This document shows, piece after piece, positions 39,305 through 55,073 of a stretch of DNA of 64,000 nt. This DNA is from Ramlibacter ginsenosidimutans (GTDB lineage Bacteria; Pseudomonadota; Gammaproteobacteria; Burkholderiales; Burkholderiaceae_C). Within the stretch, counting starts at the first letter, position 1. Each line of letters starts with the position of its first letter. The position numbers were made by a program, and so were the translations under genes. The notes under the pieces were generated by a model, which saw only the letters and a program-made list of their open reading frames with translations, had not been told where the DNA came from and did not search any database. The stretch is taken from contig NZ_JAEPWM010000008.1 of assembly GCF_016654015.1 (NCBI RefSeq), positions 62,001 through 126,000 of the forward strand, in the 5' to 3' direction.

Positions 39305-40753
39305 ATGTTCCTGAAGGCCGGCGCCCTGTCCCTCGCATTGCTTCTCGCCAGCCGCCTGCTCGGCCTGGTCCGTGAATCGGCCCAGGCAGCCGCTTTCGGC
39401 GCCAGCGGCATGGGCGACGTGGCTGTCCTGATGCTCACCCTGCCGGACTGGCTGGCCGGCCTGCTCGCCAGCGGCGCGCTGGCCTTCGTGCTGCTGCCGG
39501 CGTGGGCCCACGAGGAGGGCGCGCGCATCGCCGCCACCCAGCGCCAGGTCGCGCGCTGGCTGATCGGTGCCGGCTCCGCACTCGCGCTGCTGCTGGTCGT
39601 CGCTCGCGGCCCCGCCACCCGCCTGCTGGCCTCGGGCCTGCCGCCCGCGCTGGCCGCGGTCGCCGCCAACGGCCTGGCGTGGAGTGCGCTCGCGCTTCCG
39701 CTCGCCTTGCTCTCGGCCTTGTGGGTCACGCGGCTGCAGCACGAGCGCGACTTCGTGGGCATGTACGCGGCGAACCTGGTGGTGAACGCCGTGCTGATCG
39801 CGGCGCTGCTGCTCGCACTGGCGCTCGTGGCCGCTCCGCCCACGGGCGTGATCGTCCTTGGCACGGGGCTGCTGCTCGCGATGGCGGCGCGGCTCGCGTG
39901 GCTGCAGTGGCGCCAGCGCCCCTTCCGTTCGCCCGTGCGCGCGCAAGTGCAGCGCCTGCCGGCCGCGACGGTGTGGCTGTGGGCCGCGGCCGCCGCGGGC
40001 CTGCCGCTCGCCTTGCCCTTCGCCGCGCGCTCGCTCGCTTCGCAGCAGGCGGCCGGCGCGCTCGCCACCTTCAATTACAGCTGGAAGCTGGTGGAACTGC
40101 CGCTGGTGCTCGCCATCCAGCTGGTGGGCACGCTGTCGCTGGGCCCCATCGCCAGCGCGCTCAAGGGCGGCTCCAGCGCGGACGCGGCGCACAGCATGCG
40201 GCGCGGCTTCGCGCTGGCCTGGACGCTGGCCTGCGCCAGCGCGGCCGGCCTGCTGGTCGCCGCGCCCGCGATCGCGCACTTGCTCTTCGGGTGGGGGCGC
40301 ATGCAGCCCCAGGCCCTGGCCGACGTGGCGCAGTGGGGGCGCATCGGCGCGTGGAGCCTGCTGCCGCAGGCGCTGGTGACGATCACGCTGGCAGCGCTCG
40401 CCGCGCAGGACAAGCTGCGCGTCGCGGTGCTGGCGTATGCGGTCGCGCTCGTCGTGCTGCTGCTTGCGCATCCGCGGCACGGCGCGGCCCTGATGGCGTG
40501 GCTGGACGCGCTTTGGGCGGCCATCGCGCTGTTCCTGCTGCATGCGGTGCGGCCGGCGGGGCAGGGCTGGCTGCCGTGGCGGGCGCTCGCGGTGCCAGGC
40601 ATCGCGCTGCTGCTGCTGCAGGCGCTGCTGGGGTTCACGGGCCTGCCTGCAGGCGCCGGCATGCAGTGGGCCGGCGCGCTTGGCGCGGCCATCCTCATCA
40701 TCGGTGCGAGCTGGTGGGCCAGTGCCGACCTGCGCACGGCGCTGGCGCGATAA
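39305..40753 (+). CDS. MurJ/MviN-family flippase-like membrane protein
   Basis: A 482-residue integral membrane protein of the MOP flippase superfamily with about 13-14 helices. The N-terminal signature [24 protein letters not shown] (1-25) and [26 protein letters not shown] (about 256-281) match MurJ/MviN. It diverges from housekeeping MurJ (for example [19 protein letters not shown] instead of the usual LRRLFAEGAFSQAFVP), so it is more likely a dedicated Wzx-like flippase for the glycan made by this operon than the lipid II flippase. It is the first gene of the operon; a GATAAT hexamer 8 bases before the ATG may be a -10 box, which would give a very short leader. Confidence 0.82.
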
Positions 40754-40764
40754 TCGCGGTGGGC

Positions 40765-53257: not shown

Positions 53258-55073
53258 GAGCGCGCTGTCGCTGCTGGCGCTGGACCTCGCGCTGGGCCTC
53301 GCGGCCTGGTGGGGCGCGTTCTGGCTGCGTTTCAACTTCGACATCCCGCCGGAATTCGCGCGGCTGGCGCGCGACGCGAGCGGCTGGTGCGTGCTGGGGC
53401 TCGCCGCCGGCCTGGTGGTGCGCCGGGTGGATCGGCAGGTCTGGACTTACATCGGCCTGCCTGAGTTTCGCCAGCTCGCCGGCGGAGTGTTCCTCGGGGG
53501 CGTGTTCACGGCGGTCGTGGTGCTGATGCTGCGCCTGGCCGACTTCCCGCGCTCGGTGCTGCTGCTTCAGCCGCTGCTCGCGTTCCTGTTCACTGGGGGC
53601 GTGCGTGCGGCGTGGCGCACGCTCGCGGAGCACCGCATGCAGGGGCAGGGCGGCACGCCGGTGGTGGTGGTGGGTTCGCTGGACCAGGCGGCGGGCGCGC
53701 TGCGCGCGCTCAAGGGATCGCAGCGCTGGCGCCCCGTGGGCATCGTGTCGCCGCTTGCCGGCGAGCGCGGGCGCAGCCTGCAGGAAGTGCGCGTGCTGGG
53801 CTCGGTGGATGAGCTCGCCGACGTCTGCGAGGCCGCCGATGCGCGCACGGCGCTGGTGGCGAGCCCGCCCGGTTCGCCCGAGCGGCGCCAGGCCCTGCTG
53901 GTCGCCGCGGAGGCGCACATCTCGCTGCTCACGCTGCCCCGGCCGGACGAATGGCTCAAGGCCGAGAGCACGGGGCCGCGACGCATCGAGCTGGAAGACC
54001 TGCTGGGGCGCGACCCGGTGGCGCTGGACGTGGCGGGCCTGGCCGACCTGTTCTCGGGCCAGGTCGTCGCTGTCACCGGCGCGGGCGGGTCGATCGGCTC
54101 CGAGCTGTGCCGGCAGGTCGCGCGCTTCGGCGTCGGCCGGCTGGTCTGCATCGACGTGTCGGAGTACGGCATCTACCAGCTCGAACAGGAGCTGCGCCGC
54201 GCGCATCCGCAGATGCAGGCCGCCTACTACACGGCCAACGTGCGCGAGTACGAGCGCGTGCACGCCATCCTGTGCCAGCACCGGCCGACGGTGGTGTTCC
54301 ATGCGGCGGCCTACAAGCACGTGCCGCTGATGGAGGAGCTGAACGAGATCGAGGCGCTGCGCACCAACGTGCTGGGCACGCTGAACGCGGCGCGTGCGGC
54401 CTCGGCCTGCGGCGCCAGGCGCTTCGTGCTGATCTCCACCGACAAGGCGGTGAACCCGACCAACGTGATGGGCGCGAGCAAGCGCCTGGCCGAACTGATG
54501 CTGCAGGCGCTGGCCGCGCAGCAGACCGGCACGCAATTCGTGTCCGTGCGCTTCGGCAACGTGCTGGGCTCGAGCGGCTCGGTGGTGCCGCTGTTCACGC
54601 AGCAGATCGACCGGGGCGGCCCGGTGACGGTGACGCACCCCGAGATCGTTCGTTATTTCATGACGATCCCCGAGGCGGCGCAGCTGGTGCTGCAGGCGGG
54701 ACTGATGGGACGCACGGGCCAGATCTTCGTGCTGGACATGGGCGAGCCGGTGAAGATCGTGGAGCTCGCGCGCATGCTGATCCGCCTCTCGGGCAAGACC
54801 GAGCAGGAAGTGCCCATCACCTACACCGGCCTGCGACCGGGCGAGAAGCTCTACGAGGAACTGCTCGCCGACGACGAGACCACGGAGCCCACCCCGCACG
54901 CGAAGCTGCGCATCGCCAAGACCACCGGCACCCTGCCGGACATCGAGGCGGTCGTGCGCTGGATCGCGCAGGCCGGCGCCTTGCCTGCCGGCGCGCCGCT
55001 GCGCATCTGGCTGCGTGGGCAGGTGCCCGAATACGCGCCGCGCGACGAGGCTGTGAACACCGCTGCCCGCTGA
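53241..55073 (+). CDS. WbpM/PglF/CapD-family nucleotide-sugar 4,6-dehydratase
   Basis: A 610-residue membrane-anchored enzyme. Residues about 8-125 contain four hydrophobic helices. A first Rossmann-like domain (about 138-235) follows. The SDR dehydratase domain starts at about 272 with VAVTGAGGSIGSELCRQ (277-293). The active-site region reads STDKAVNPTNVMGASKR (399-415): Thr400, Asp401, Lys402, and Met410/Lys414 in place of the usual Tyr-x3-Lys, as in WbpM and PglF. It should convert UDP-GlcNAc to the 4-keto-6-deoxy sugar, the first step of bacillosamine or legionaminate synthesis. Start is GTG overlapping the aminotransferase by 17 bases. It is the last gene of the operon. Confidence 0.9.
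   Translation: MRLPTRSALSLLALDLALGLAAWWGAFWLRFNFDIPPEFARLARDASGWCVLGLAAGLVVRRVDRQVWTYIGLPEFRQLAGGVFLGGVFTAVVVLMLRLADFPRSVLLLQPLLAFLFTGGVRAAWRTLAEHRMQGQGGTPVVVVGSLDQAAGALRALKGSQRWRPVGIVSPLAGERGRSLQEVRVLGSVDELADVCEAADARTALVASPPGSPERRQALLVAAEAHISLLTLPRPDEWLKAESTGPRRIELEDLLGRDPVALDVAGLADLFSGQVVAVTGAGGSIGSELCRQVARFGVGRLVCIDVSEYGIYQLEQELRRAHPQMQAAYYTANVREYERVHAILCQHRPTVVFHAAAYKHVPLMEELNEIEALRTNVLGTLNAARAASACGARRFVLISTDKAVNPTNVMGASKRLAELMLQALAAQQTGTQFVSVRFGNVLGSSGSVVPLFTQQIDRGGPVTVTHPEIVRYFMTIPEAAQLVLQAGLMGRTGQIFVLDMGEPVKIVELARMLIRLSGKTEQEVPITYTGLRPGEKLYEELLADDETTEPTPHAKLRIAKTTGTLPDIEAVVRWIAQAGALPAGAPLRIWLRGQVPEYAPRDEAVNTAAR

Follow-up and report, generated by a model that had tools for sequence, protein, structure and literature searches.

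Nonulosonic acids are look-alikes of sialic acid on the surfaces of bacteria. A comparable sugar acid is the Kdo8N of Shewanella, where KdnA and KdnB, a dehydrogenase and an aminotransferase dependent upon pyridoxal phosphate (PLP), aminate C8 of a 3-deoxy sugar acid and a matching CMP-synthetase is present; this pathway differs from that considered here in its eight-carbon sugar and in its enzyme families. The other systems closest to our subject are described below. In the UDP-type legionaminate route of Legionella pneumophila, NeuC, NeuB, and NeuA act upon UDP-diNAc-bacillosamine (PMC3766260). The PtmA/PtmF loci of Campylobacter and Plesiomonas have been described in PMC4481668, and in Acinetobacter EpaA and EpaB, a CMP-transferase/aldo-keto reductase fusion and a short-chain dehydrogenase/reductase (SDR) of the adh_short_C2 type, convert pseudaminate into its 8-epimer (PMC12053666). 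Lastly, the O-polysaccharide of Flexibacter (Tenacibaculum) maritimus contains an 8-amino nonulosonic acid joined to a bacillosamine-type sugar (PMC3210612; the 8-amino sugar also in PMC4052302). Here, we describe an operon of 14 genes located at positions 39305..55073 of a 64,000-nucleotide stretch (the window; contig NZ_JAEPWM010000008.1, positions 62,001 to 126,000) from the 5.3 Mb genome of Ramlibacter ginsenosidimutans, in which genes matching a legionaminate route are accompanied by a class III aminotransferase, similar to the glutamate-1-semialdehyde (GSA) aminotransferases, which we will refer to as AT3. The CMP-synthetase, Gfo/Idh protein, and AT3 of this operon will be called the cassette.

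Like the L. pneumophila UDP route, the window has a dehydratase, an aminotransferase, NeuD, NeuC, NeuB, and a CMP-synthetase, with no PtmE in the locus, but it adds AT3, an SDR, and a Gfo/Idh protein with the motif EAS (EAS-Gfo), and its LegC bears a CBS region. It resembles the Campylobacter and Plesiomonas loci in having, next to the CMP-synthetase, an SDR and an oxidoreductase of the Gfo/Idh type, whereas the gene table of PMC4481668 names no class III aminotransferase, and the Gfo proteins linked to AT3 have EAS where those of AT3-less loci have EKP. The resemblance to epaA/epaB and the related aciE (PMC12053666, PMC5595891) lies in a CMP-transferase tied to an oxidoreductase and in an adh_short_C2 SDR of about 262 amino acids (aa), with chemistry at C8; however, the window has an aminotransferase where Acinetobacter has the aldo-keto reductase, and the SDRs are likened by description only. 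In F. maritimus, the resemblance lies in the structure of the glycan, where a bacillosamine-type sugar and an 8-amino nonulosonic acid make up a disaccharide (PMC3210612). The operon is mostly of a known kind and its AT3 cassette is a widespread variant for which, as far as we could find, the openly licensed literature offers no explanation; nor did we find there what this aminotransferase does in nonulosonate loci. The nonulosonate probably receives one further amino group through the AT3 block, and our tentative reading, to which we give somewhat less than an even chance, is that the operon is modular and directs a short, lipid-linked glycan of the cell surface carrying a modified legionaminate, the block aminating it at C8.

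Judged from phylogenetic trees, the CMP-synthetase and AT3 descend together. In the beta-proteobacterial loci, the CMP-synthetase tree splits 16 rows possessing AT3 from 13 lacking it by a single change, while six changes are seen in the NeuB tree (18 and 13 rows, respectively) and four in that of the SDR (17 and 6). The careful trees of 19 matched loci gave one change for NeuA (support 100/100), six for NeuB, and four for the SDR, and a single AT3-positive clade was rejected by the approximately unbiased (AU) test for both NeuB and the SDR, the SDR tree carrying a long-branch warning. The AT3-less rows were obtained mainly by a NeuB search of 300 genomes of the order, 23 of which gave a match (the search missed G124, which has NeuB); 16 loci were added from these, four were already in the set, and G088, G097, and G134 were left out. 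Two rows (L024 and L036) came from other comparisons, and L187 and L189-L193, the loci of which were not legionaminate-type by their look, and L182, which is cut, were omitted before the count. The link of the CMP-synthetase with AT3 might be due to physical hitch-hiking of neighbors, which would make it uninformative on the substrate. The two genes are close together in most loci and the AT3-positive rows were picked by the similarity of their AT3 to those of the window and three relatives, both of which favor this explanation. However, the SDR, although directly adjacent to AT3 in the window, does not follow it (four changes, with one clade rejected by the AU test), and therefore adjacency alone does not explain the behavior of NeuA. 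The distance correlations over 24 loci and the window also speak against hitch-hiking, which we consider rather improbable: AT3 correlates with NeuA at 0.64, with the SDR at 0.55, and with NeuB at 0.46, the values for NeuB-NeuC and NeuA-NeuB being 0.63 and 0.26.

To place AT3 itself, its PLP-lysine motif FGKGM is retained and its best solved relatives are GSA 2,1-aminomutases, others including C-6' aminotransferases, which act on aminoglycoside sugars. Its identification as the haem enzyme HemL was rejected, as it scores 178 bits against TIGR00713 (cut-off 527) and a separate HemL of 580 bits is present elsewhere in the genome. The kinship with GSA aminomutases is in keeping with a different role, in which AT3 would act at C4, or as an aminomutase shifting an amino group between C7 and C8, a shift that requires no external amine donor. 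However, the score of the window AT3 lies far under the HemL cut-off, and a free 7-amino group would be needed, yet no deacetylase is a constant partner of AT3, genes of the PIG-L type being found in few rows; such a role thus appears to be of low probability.

An alignment of four AT3 proteins (that of the window and three relatives) was used to survey the species genomes for AT3, and of the at least 588 relatives detected the best 80 were kept, the nonulosonate link holding for those nearest matches only. The three nearest named loci are from two Ramlibacter and one Acidovorax, and the best 80 cover ten named phyla (37 Bacteroidota, 30 Pseudomonadota, and two unplaced loci), with many metagenome-assembled genomes (MAGs) among them. 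Partners were counted in the 59 loci having at least 5 kb of sequence on the left and at least 3 kb on the right of AT3, the 21 with shorter flanks being dropped. An SDR was present in 58 of these, a CMP-synthetase (NeuA or SpsF type) in 57, NeuB in 54, a PtmE-type gene in 43, Gfo in 26, HisF/HisH in 21, a C-N hydrolase in 17, and a CysE-like protein in 12. Profile matches confirmed the reference names of HisF, HisH, C-N hydrolase, the CBS plus nucleotidyltransferase protein, WbuX, and the SpsF-type cytidylyltransferase; the CysE-like protein matched the CysE/EpsC models weakly, below cut-off. Gfo alone was found near AT3 in 24 loci, WbpG/HisH/HisF alone in 14, both in 2, and neither in 19 (Fisher p 0.003). 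The CysE-like protein (about 220 aa) is present in 10 of the 14 loci of the WbpG/HisH/HisF version, lying between HisF and AT3 in L071, L073, and others.

These counts bear upon a further possibility, that AT3 makes an amino-acyl side chain (e.g., alanyl or beta-amino) for N5 or N7 of a legionaminate with an unchanged backbone. Small molecules are common substrates of class III aminotransferases, and the C-N hydrolase and CysE-like acyltransferase seen in some AT3 loci would suit this role. An alanyl-type legionaminate has also been suggested, although not shown, for Aliivibrio wodanis (PMC7371886). Against this, the constant partners of AT3 in the 59 loci are the CMP-synthetase and the SDR and not any acyl or amino-acyl transferase, and it is easier to explain why the CMP-synthetase follows AT3 if the latter alters the sugar that is being activated. 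The sister group of AT3 (about 44-49% identical to the window AT3) also argues against it: a glucose-1-phosphate cytidylyltransferase is present in six of its seven checked loci (L013, L015, L016, L207, L208, and L209, but not L014), and therefore these enzymes go with cytidine-activated sugars. We regard the side-chain explanation as unlikely. The sister group is probably another unexplained CDP-sugar aminotransferase, and its six loci with the cytidylyltransferase also contain an S-adenosylmethionine (SAM) methyltransferase and, in three of the six, a PIG-L deacetylase.

It could also be that AT3, Gfo, and the SDR supply an amino-sugar precursor (GlcN for a nucleotide-linked building block), a role that has been proposed for PtmA in the GDP route of Campylobacter, and that the end product is ordinary legionaminate. 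The best match of the SDR is to the model PRK09186, which we take to be PtmA-like, and PtmE-type genes are common among the AT3 loci (43 of 59). PtmA has been placed in the first part of its pathway (PMC4481668), which also suits a role in precursor supply. However, no PtmE match was obtained in 16 of the 59 loci, 15 of which keep the SDR and 12 NeuB, the window locus itself is without PtmE, and the supply of a precursor would not account for a CMP-synthetase that follows AT3. Hence, we consider it quite improbable.

The Gfo/Idh protein of the cassette has the fold domains of the Gfo/Idh/MocA family (PF01408 and PF22725 over cut-off), its profile matching only distant solved relatives. In place of the EKP motif with the catalytic lysine it has EAS, as seen by alignment and pattern only. 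The K, D, and H residues are, we presume, the catalytic ones of this fold. In an alignment of 36 rows, consisting of the window protein and 35 Gfo proteins beside AT3 (one of 36 AT3-adjacent open reading frames (ORFs) was excluded by score or length), E-A-S replaces E-K-P in all 36, and D151-W152-H153, E156, R172-E173, and E178 are at least 95% conserved; E89-A90-S91 is invariant in a 34-row alignment. A pattern check of the 80 AT3 loci gave 40 candidate Gfo frames, of which two were unreadable (L067, a short frame in which the motif is missing, and L124, a ten-residue artefact) and 37 of the 38 readable ones had EAS. The sole EKP protein is in L139, a locus in which a second nonulosonate gene set is found on the opposite strand, beside an EAS protein that adjoins AT3. 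By comparison, the Gfo relatives of AT3-less nonulosonate loci have EKP in 6/6 cases and EAS in none (L024, L036, L050, L178, L184, and L186). The AT3-linked proteins thus appear, by alignment, to have lost the catalytic lysine. The preliminary description of this stretch had taken the atypical Gfo/Idh protein and the class III aminotransferase as pointers to a modified sugar acid, and this part of the proposal is supported.

A comparison with other Ramlibacter genomes shows that the locus is a mosaic, a feature absent from the preliminary description. All 14 genes are present in identical order in two relatives, G684 from the same genus and Ramlibacter montanisoli (L069), so that the operon is not a chance arrangement. 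Their identity in G684 is 77-90% (MurJ-like protein 77%), NeuD being in two pieces of 66 and 77%, and the G684 operon sits between lysS and the LON/YggT/accD/trpA genes, the right-hand neighbors being the same in R. montanisoli. It had been said earlier that the same genes in the same order with a sugar already assigned would undo the claim of an unusual glycan; the genes and their order do recur in these relatives, but no assigned sugar was found in the openly licensed literature. An Acidovorax MAG (L068) has the gene set without detected MurJ and Gfo and with an AsnB only 34-36% identical. Four further congeners (G490, G626, G391, and G563) were located via the lysS region. In G490 (L033), HpcH (71% identical to the window), PglC (66%), AsnB (76%), PglF (70%), the MurJ-like protein (58%), and the glycosyltransferase (GT; 44%) are kept, and between GT and PglF lie, in inverted orientation, PseI (478 bits), PseF (295), PseC (513), and PseB (523), all above the NCBIfam cut-offs. 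This inverted pseudaminate cassette, together with a WbqC-family protein, occupies L033 8786-15023 inside the shared backbone. In G626 (L036), the left side (MurJ 58, HpcH 68, PglC 68, AsnB 76%) and the right side (SDR 71, NeuB 71, NeuC 65, NeuD 62, DegT 73, PglF 75%) are similar to the window, whereas in the middle GT is 35, NeuA 40, and Gfo 25% identical and AT3 is missing, GT and other ORFs being on the opposite strand. The aligned genes thus show that what sets the window apart from this AT3-less congener is a single block made up of GT, CMP-synthetase, Gfo, and AT3. In G391 (L034), the site is occupied by another glycan locus, with only distant relatives of PglF (43%) and PglC (40%), and the G563 contig stops short of it.

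Outside the family, G016 (L044, L051) and G112 (L045, L050) retain HpcH, PglC, AsnB, GT, and the CMP-synthetase and also carry NeuB, NeuC, NeuD, CBS-DegT, and PglF. No AT3 match was obtained in their loci, to which a WbuX-type amidotransferase, HisF, and HisH are added (the families being confirmed for G112). As HpcH, PglC, AsnB, and PglF recur in the congener alleles and in G016 and G112 (PglC, for example, in L033, L036, L044, and L045), these four genes constitute a backbone serving different nonulosonates. The aldolase and the AsnB-like enzyme had earlier been read as signs of a new sugar acid, and this part of the proposal does not hold: both are kept in the pseudaminate-type L033 and both occur alongside nonulosonate genes in AT3-less loci of two other families. 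Because they persist where the sugar genes are those of pseudaminate, they are not evidence for a new acid, and their membership in the sugar-acid pathway was rejected. Distant HpcH relatives (38%) adjoin a protein of about 170 aa in L046 (7799-9174) and L048 (8123-9468), and no nonulosonate genes were detected near this pair.

In the pathway that we favor, PglF, CBS-LegC, NeuD, NeuC, and NeuB would, from their families, lead from UDP-GlcNAc via UDP-diNAc-bacillosamine to a sugar of the di-N-acetyl-legionaminate type. The SDR may oxidize the C8 hydroxyl of this nonulosonate to a ketone, from which AT3 would form an 8-amino group by transamination; the CMP-synthetase that goes with AT3 would work with the aminated product, with amination either before or after activation. 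EAS-Gfo, a PtmF relative minus the usual catalytic residues, may assist and would not be a normal dehydrogenase. The GT would add the nonulosonate to a PglC-primed sugar, the MurJ-like flippase would export the glycan, and AsnB and HpcH would modify the primed sugar or its linkage and not the nonulosonate. We infer C8 as the favored position because the free carbon hydroxyls of legionaminate, the anomeric one aside, are at C4 and C8 only, because EpaA/EpaB convert pseudaminate to the 8-epimer, and because an 8-amino nonulosonic acid has been reported from F. maritimus, the repeat of which is, by analogy, built like a product that a PglC-primed locus with one GT could make. As a doubtful but wider possibility, the CMP-synthetase/AT3 pair with the SDR, and often EAS-Gfo, may represent the missing C8-amination pathway for 5,7,8-triamino nonulosonic acids, the C8 amine of which would be free or acylated. 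Such a pathway would be encoded in no fewer than ten named phyla, while the sugars themselves have, as far as we found, been seen chemically in one fish bacterium only.

A number of observations weigh against C8 amination by AT3. To our knowledge, none of the AT3 loci examined has been linked to an enzyme activity or a glycan structure, and amination at C4 or of an N-acyl group would also fit most of the data. EAS-Gfo is found in only 26 of the 59 AT3 loci and is therefore not essential to the chemistry. The SDR is not specific for AT3, as 6 of the 13 legionaminate-type loci without AT3 contain it and a seventh has one at 25% identity, and the Plesiomonas paper (PMC4481668) assigns its relative PtmA to the part of the Campylobacter pathway that deals with GDP-sugars. 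The identity of the GT to that of the window tracks the sugar type in part only, being 52% in L068 and 36% in L133 (both AT3-positive), 44% in the pseudaminate-type L033, and 35% in the same-genus, AT3-less L036. The O-antigen loci of L. pneumophila Sg6/12 have a class III aminotransferase, possibly an AT3, beside the CMP-synthetase (PMC3694923), and the sugar named for the non-1 Legionella serogroups in one review and in the title of a reference is 4-epilegionaminate, neither source speaking of an additional amine.

With regard to the remainder of the operon, the features are listed in Table 1. The 14 genes are complete and on the plus strand, and they form one coupled operon, as had been outlined in the preliminary description, with overlaps at 10 of the 13 junctions; the earlier gene names also agree with the profile matches. 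The junctions are: MurJ-like/HpcH +11, HpcH/PglC -4, PglC/AsnB 0, AsnB/GT -4, GT/NeuA -4, NeuA/Gfo -4, Gfo/AT3 -4, AT3/SDR -1, SDR/NeuB -1, NeuB/NeuC -4, NeuC/NeuD +1, NeuD/DegT -4, and DegT/PglF -17 nucleotides, so that the three that do not overlap are spaced by 0, 1, and 11. The HpcH start was set at ATG 40765 by hand count on the sequence, the searches being run from 40771, and that of NeuD was taken as GTG 51126. The encoded initiating transferase, single GT, and flippase that had been noted earlier are assignable to PF02397, PF13439, and a MurJ-like protein, respectively.

Table 1. Genes of the operon in the window, with the profile matches (bits and cut-offs) used for naming them.
Feature	Position	Strand	Basis
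MurJ-like lipid-linked glycan flippase, 482 aa	39305..40753	+	TIGR01695 88 bits, cut-off 236
HpcH/HpaI aldolase-like protein, backbone gene	40765..41568	+	PF03328 39.7 bits, cut-off 25
Initiating phosphoglycosyltransferase, PglC size, 184 aa, backbone gene	41565..42119	+	PF02397 215 bits
AsnB-like glutamine amidotransferase, backbone gene	42120..43898	+	TIGR01536 437 bits, cut-off 267
GT-B-like glycosyltransferase, candidate nonulosonate transferase	43895..45142	+	PF13439 36.2 bits, cut-off 28.5
CMP-nonulosonate synthetase (NeuA/PseF type), cassette	45139..45846	+	PF02348; PseF model 124 bits, cut-off 206
Gfo/Idh-fold protein without catalytic Lys (EAS family), cassette	45843..46817	+	PF01408 and PF22725 above cut-off
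AT3, class III aminotransferase, cassette	46814..48172	+	PF00202; PRK06209 612 bits, cut-off 486
SDR, adh_short_C2	48172..48960	+	PF13561 167 bits; best NCBIfam PRK09186 177 bits, cut-off 255
NeuB nonulosonate synthase with SAF domain	48960..49991	+	TIGR03569 415 bits, cut-off 400; PF03102, PF08666
NeuC hydrolysing 2-epimerase	49988..51124	+	TIGR03568 364 bits, cut-off 236
NeuD/PglD-type acetyltransferase	51126..51752	+	TIGR03570 190 bits, cut-off 161
CBS region fused to LegC-type DegT aminotransferase	51749..53257	+	PF00571 (one stretch), PF01041, TIGR04181
PglF/WbpM-type membrane 4,6-dehydratase, backbone gene	53241..55073	+	Best matches 4,6-dehydratase models, below cut-off

The earlier assignment of a legionaminate-type route from UDP-GlcNAc agrees with the gene content, since all six gene families (4,6-dehydratase, LegC aminotransferase, NeuD, NeuC, NeuB, and CMP-synthetase) are present in the operon, and PglF, CBS-LegC, NeuD, NeuC, NeuB, and the CMP-synthetase fit the UDP type of this route by family; the product of a legionaminate route would be a D-glycero-D-galacto 5,7-diamino nonulosonate. 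NeuB, NeuC, and NeuD pass the NCBIfam cut-offs, whereas the models for the dehydratase, LegC, and the CMP-synthetase match below theirs; the best match of DegT is to the LegC family TIGR04181 (366 bits, cut-off 420), with the CBS region at its N-terminus. No PtmE-type protein with CBS and nucleotidyltransferase regions, as in the GDP-type route of Campylobacter, was found among the 14 genes, to which this search was restricted, and the CBS region sits on LegC instead. This fusion of the CBS region, elsewhere a part of PtmE, to a LegC-type aminotransferase is also seen in L050, L051, L066, and L133, and no PtmE was detected in the fusion loci. The pseudaminate models PseI, PseC, and PseB gave 263, 258, and 164 bits in the window, below their cut-offs of 340, 424, and 408. 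PglF has MGASK in place of YxxxK, the nearest solved sequences of the CMP-synthetase are CMP-NeuNAc synthetases, and the SDR has the NNA and YSASK motifs, the glycine-motif pattern used giving no match. The HpcH protein contains RVNP, LLETA, and VGLND, presumably the active-site motifs of its family, and has no match among solved structures; AsnB has the N-terminal MCG and the SGGVDS motifs. The GT weakly matches the BFO_1060 family (31.6 bits, cut-off 200). The possibility that the flippase is the cell's own MurJ was rejected, its 88 bits being below the cut-off of 236 and a separate full MurJ of 445 bits being present in the genome. No Maf transferase was found in the genome by PF01973, and hence there is no support for flagellin transfer by a Maf of that family; Wzy_C has six matches elsewhere in the genome.

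Homologs of AT3 were also seen in other contexts. In L018 (969-4992), AT3 is accompanied by an aldo-keto reductase (PF00248) and by a distant NeuB (25%), which constitutes a third context for it. A plasmid search gave 33 records, one of the 25 listed being at 63% identity and the others at 44-46%, and glucose-1-phosphate cytidylyltransferase was present in all three records examined. The phage searches gave 103 records for the SDR (30-33% identity in the 15 listed) and 37 for AT3 (26-28% in the 10 listed, apart from one at 47%), and EpaB could not be singled out in them. The latter exception is an unannotated 'Bacteriophage sp.' record from faeces (MT837580.1, 2200-3492), which is either phage or stray bacterial DNA. 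The AT3 genes of L120 and L077 had no DNA-level match in E. coli, so that there was no structurally characterized E. coli O-antigen to draw upon.

If the block both modifies the sugar and comes with an activating enzyme of its own, then many loci now called "legionaminate" would make something else. AT3 with its matching CMP-synthetase, often with EAS-Gfo, would provide a sequence marker for finding such loci. It would also provide a testable gene set for 8-amino nonulosonate, for which we found no assigned genes in the openly licensed literature. Lastly, the difference seen within Ramlibacter constitutes a natural experiment, as two relatives, one with and one without the block, would be expected to be distinguished by a single sugar.

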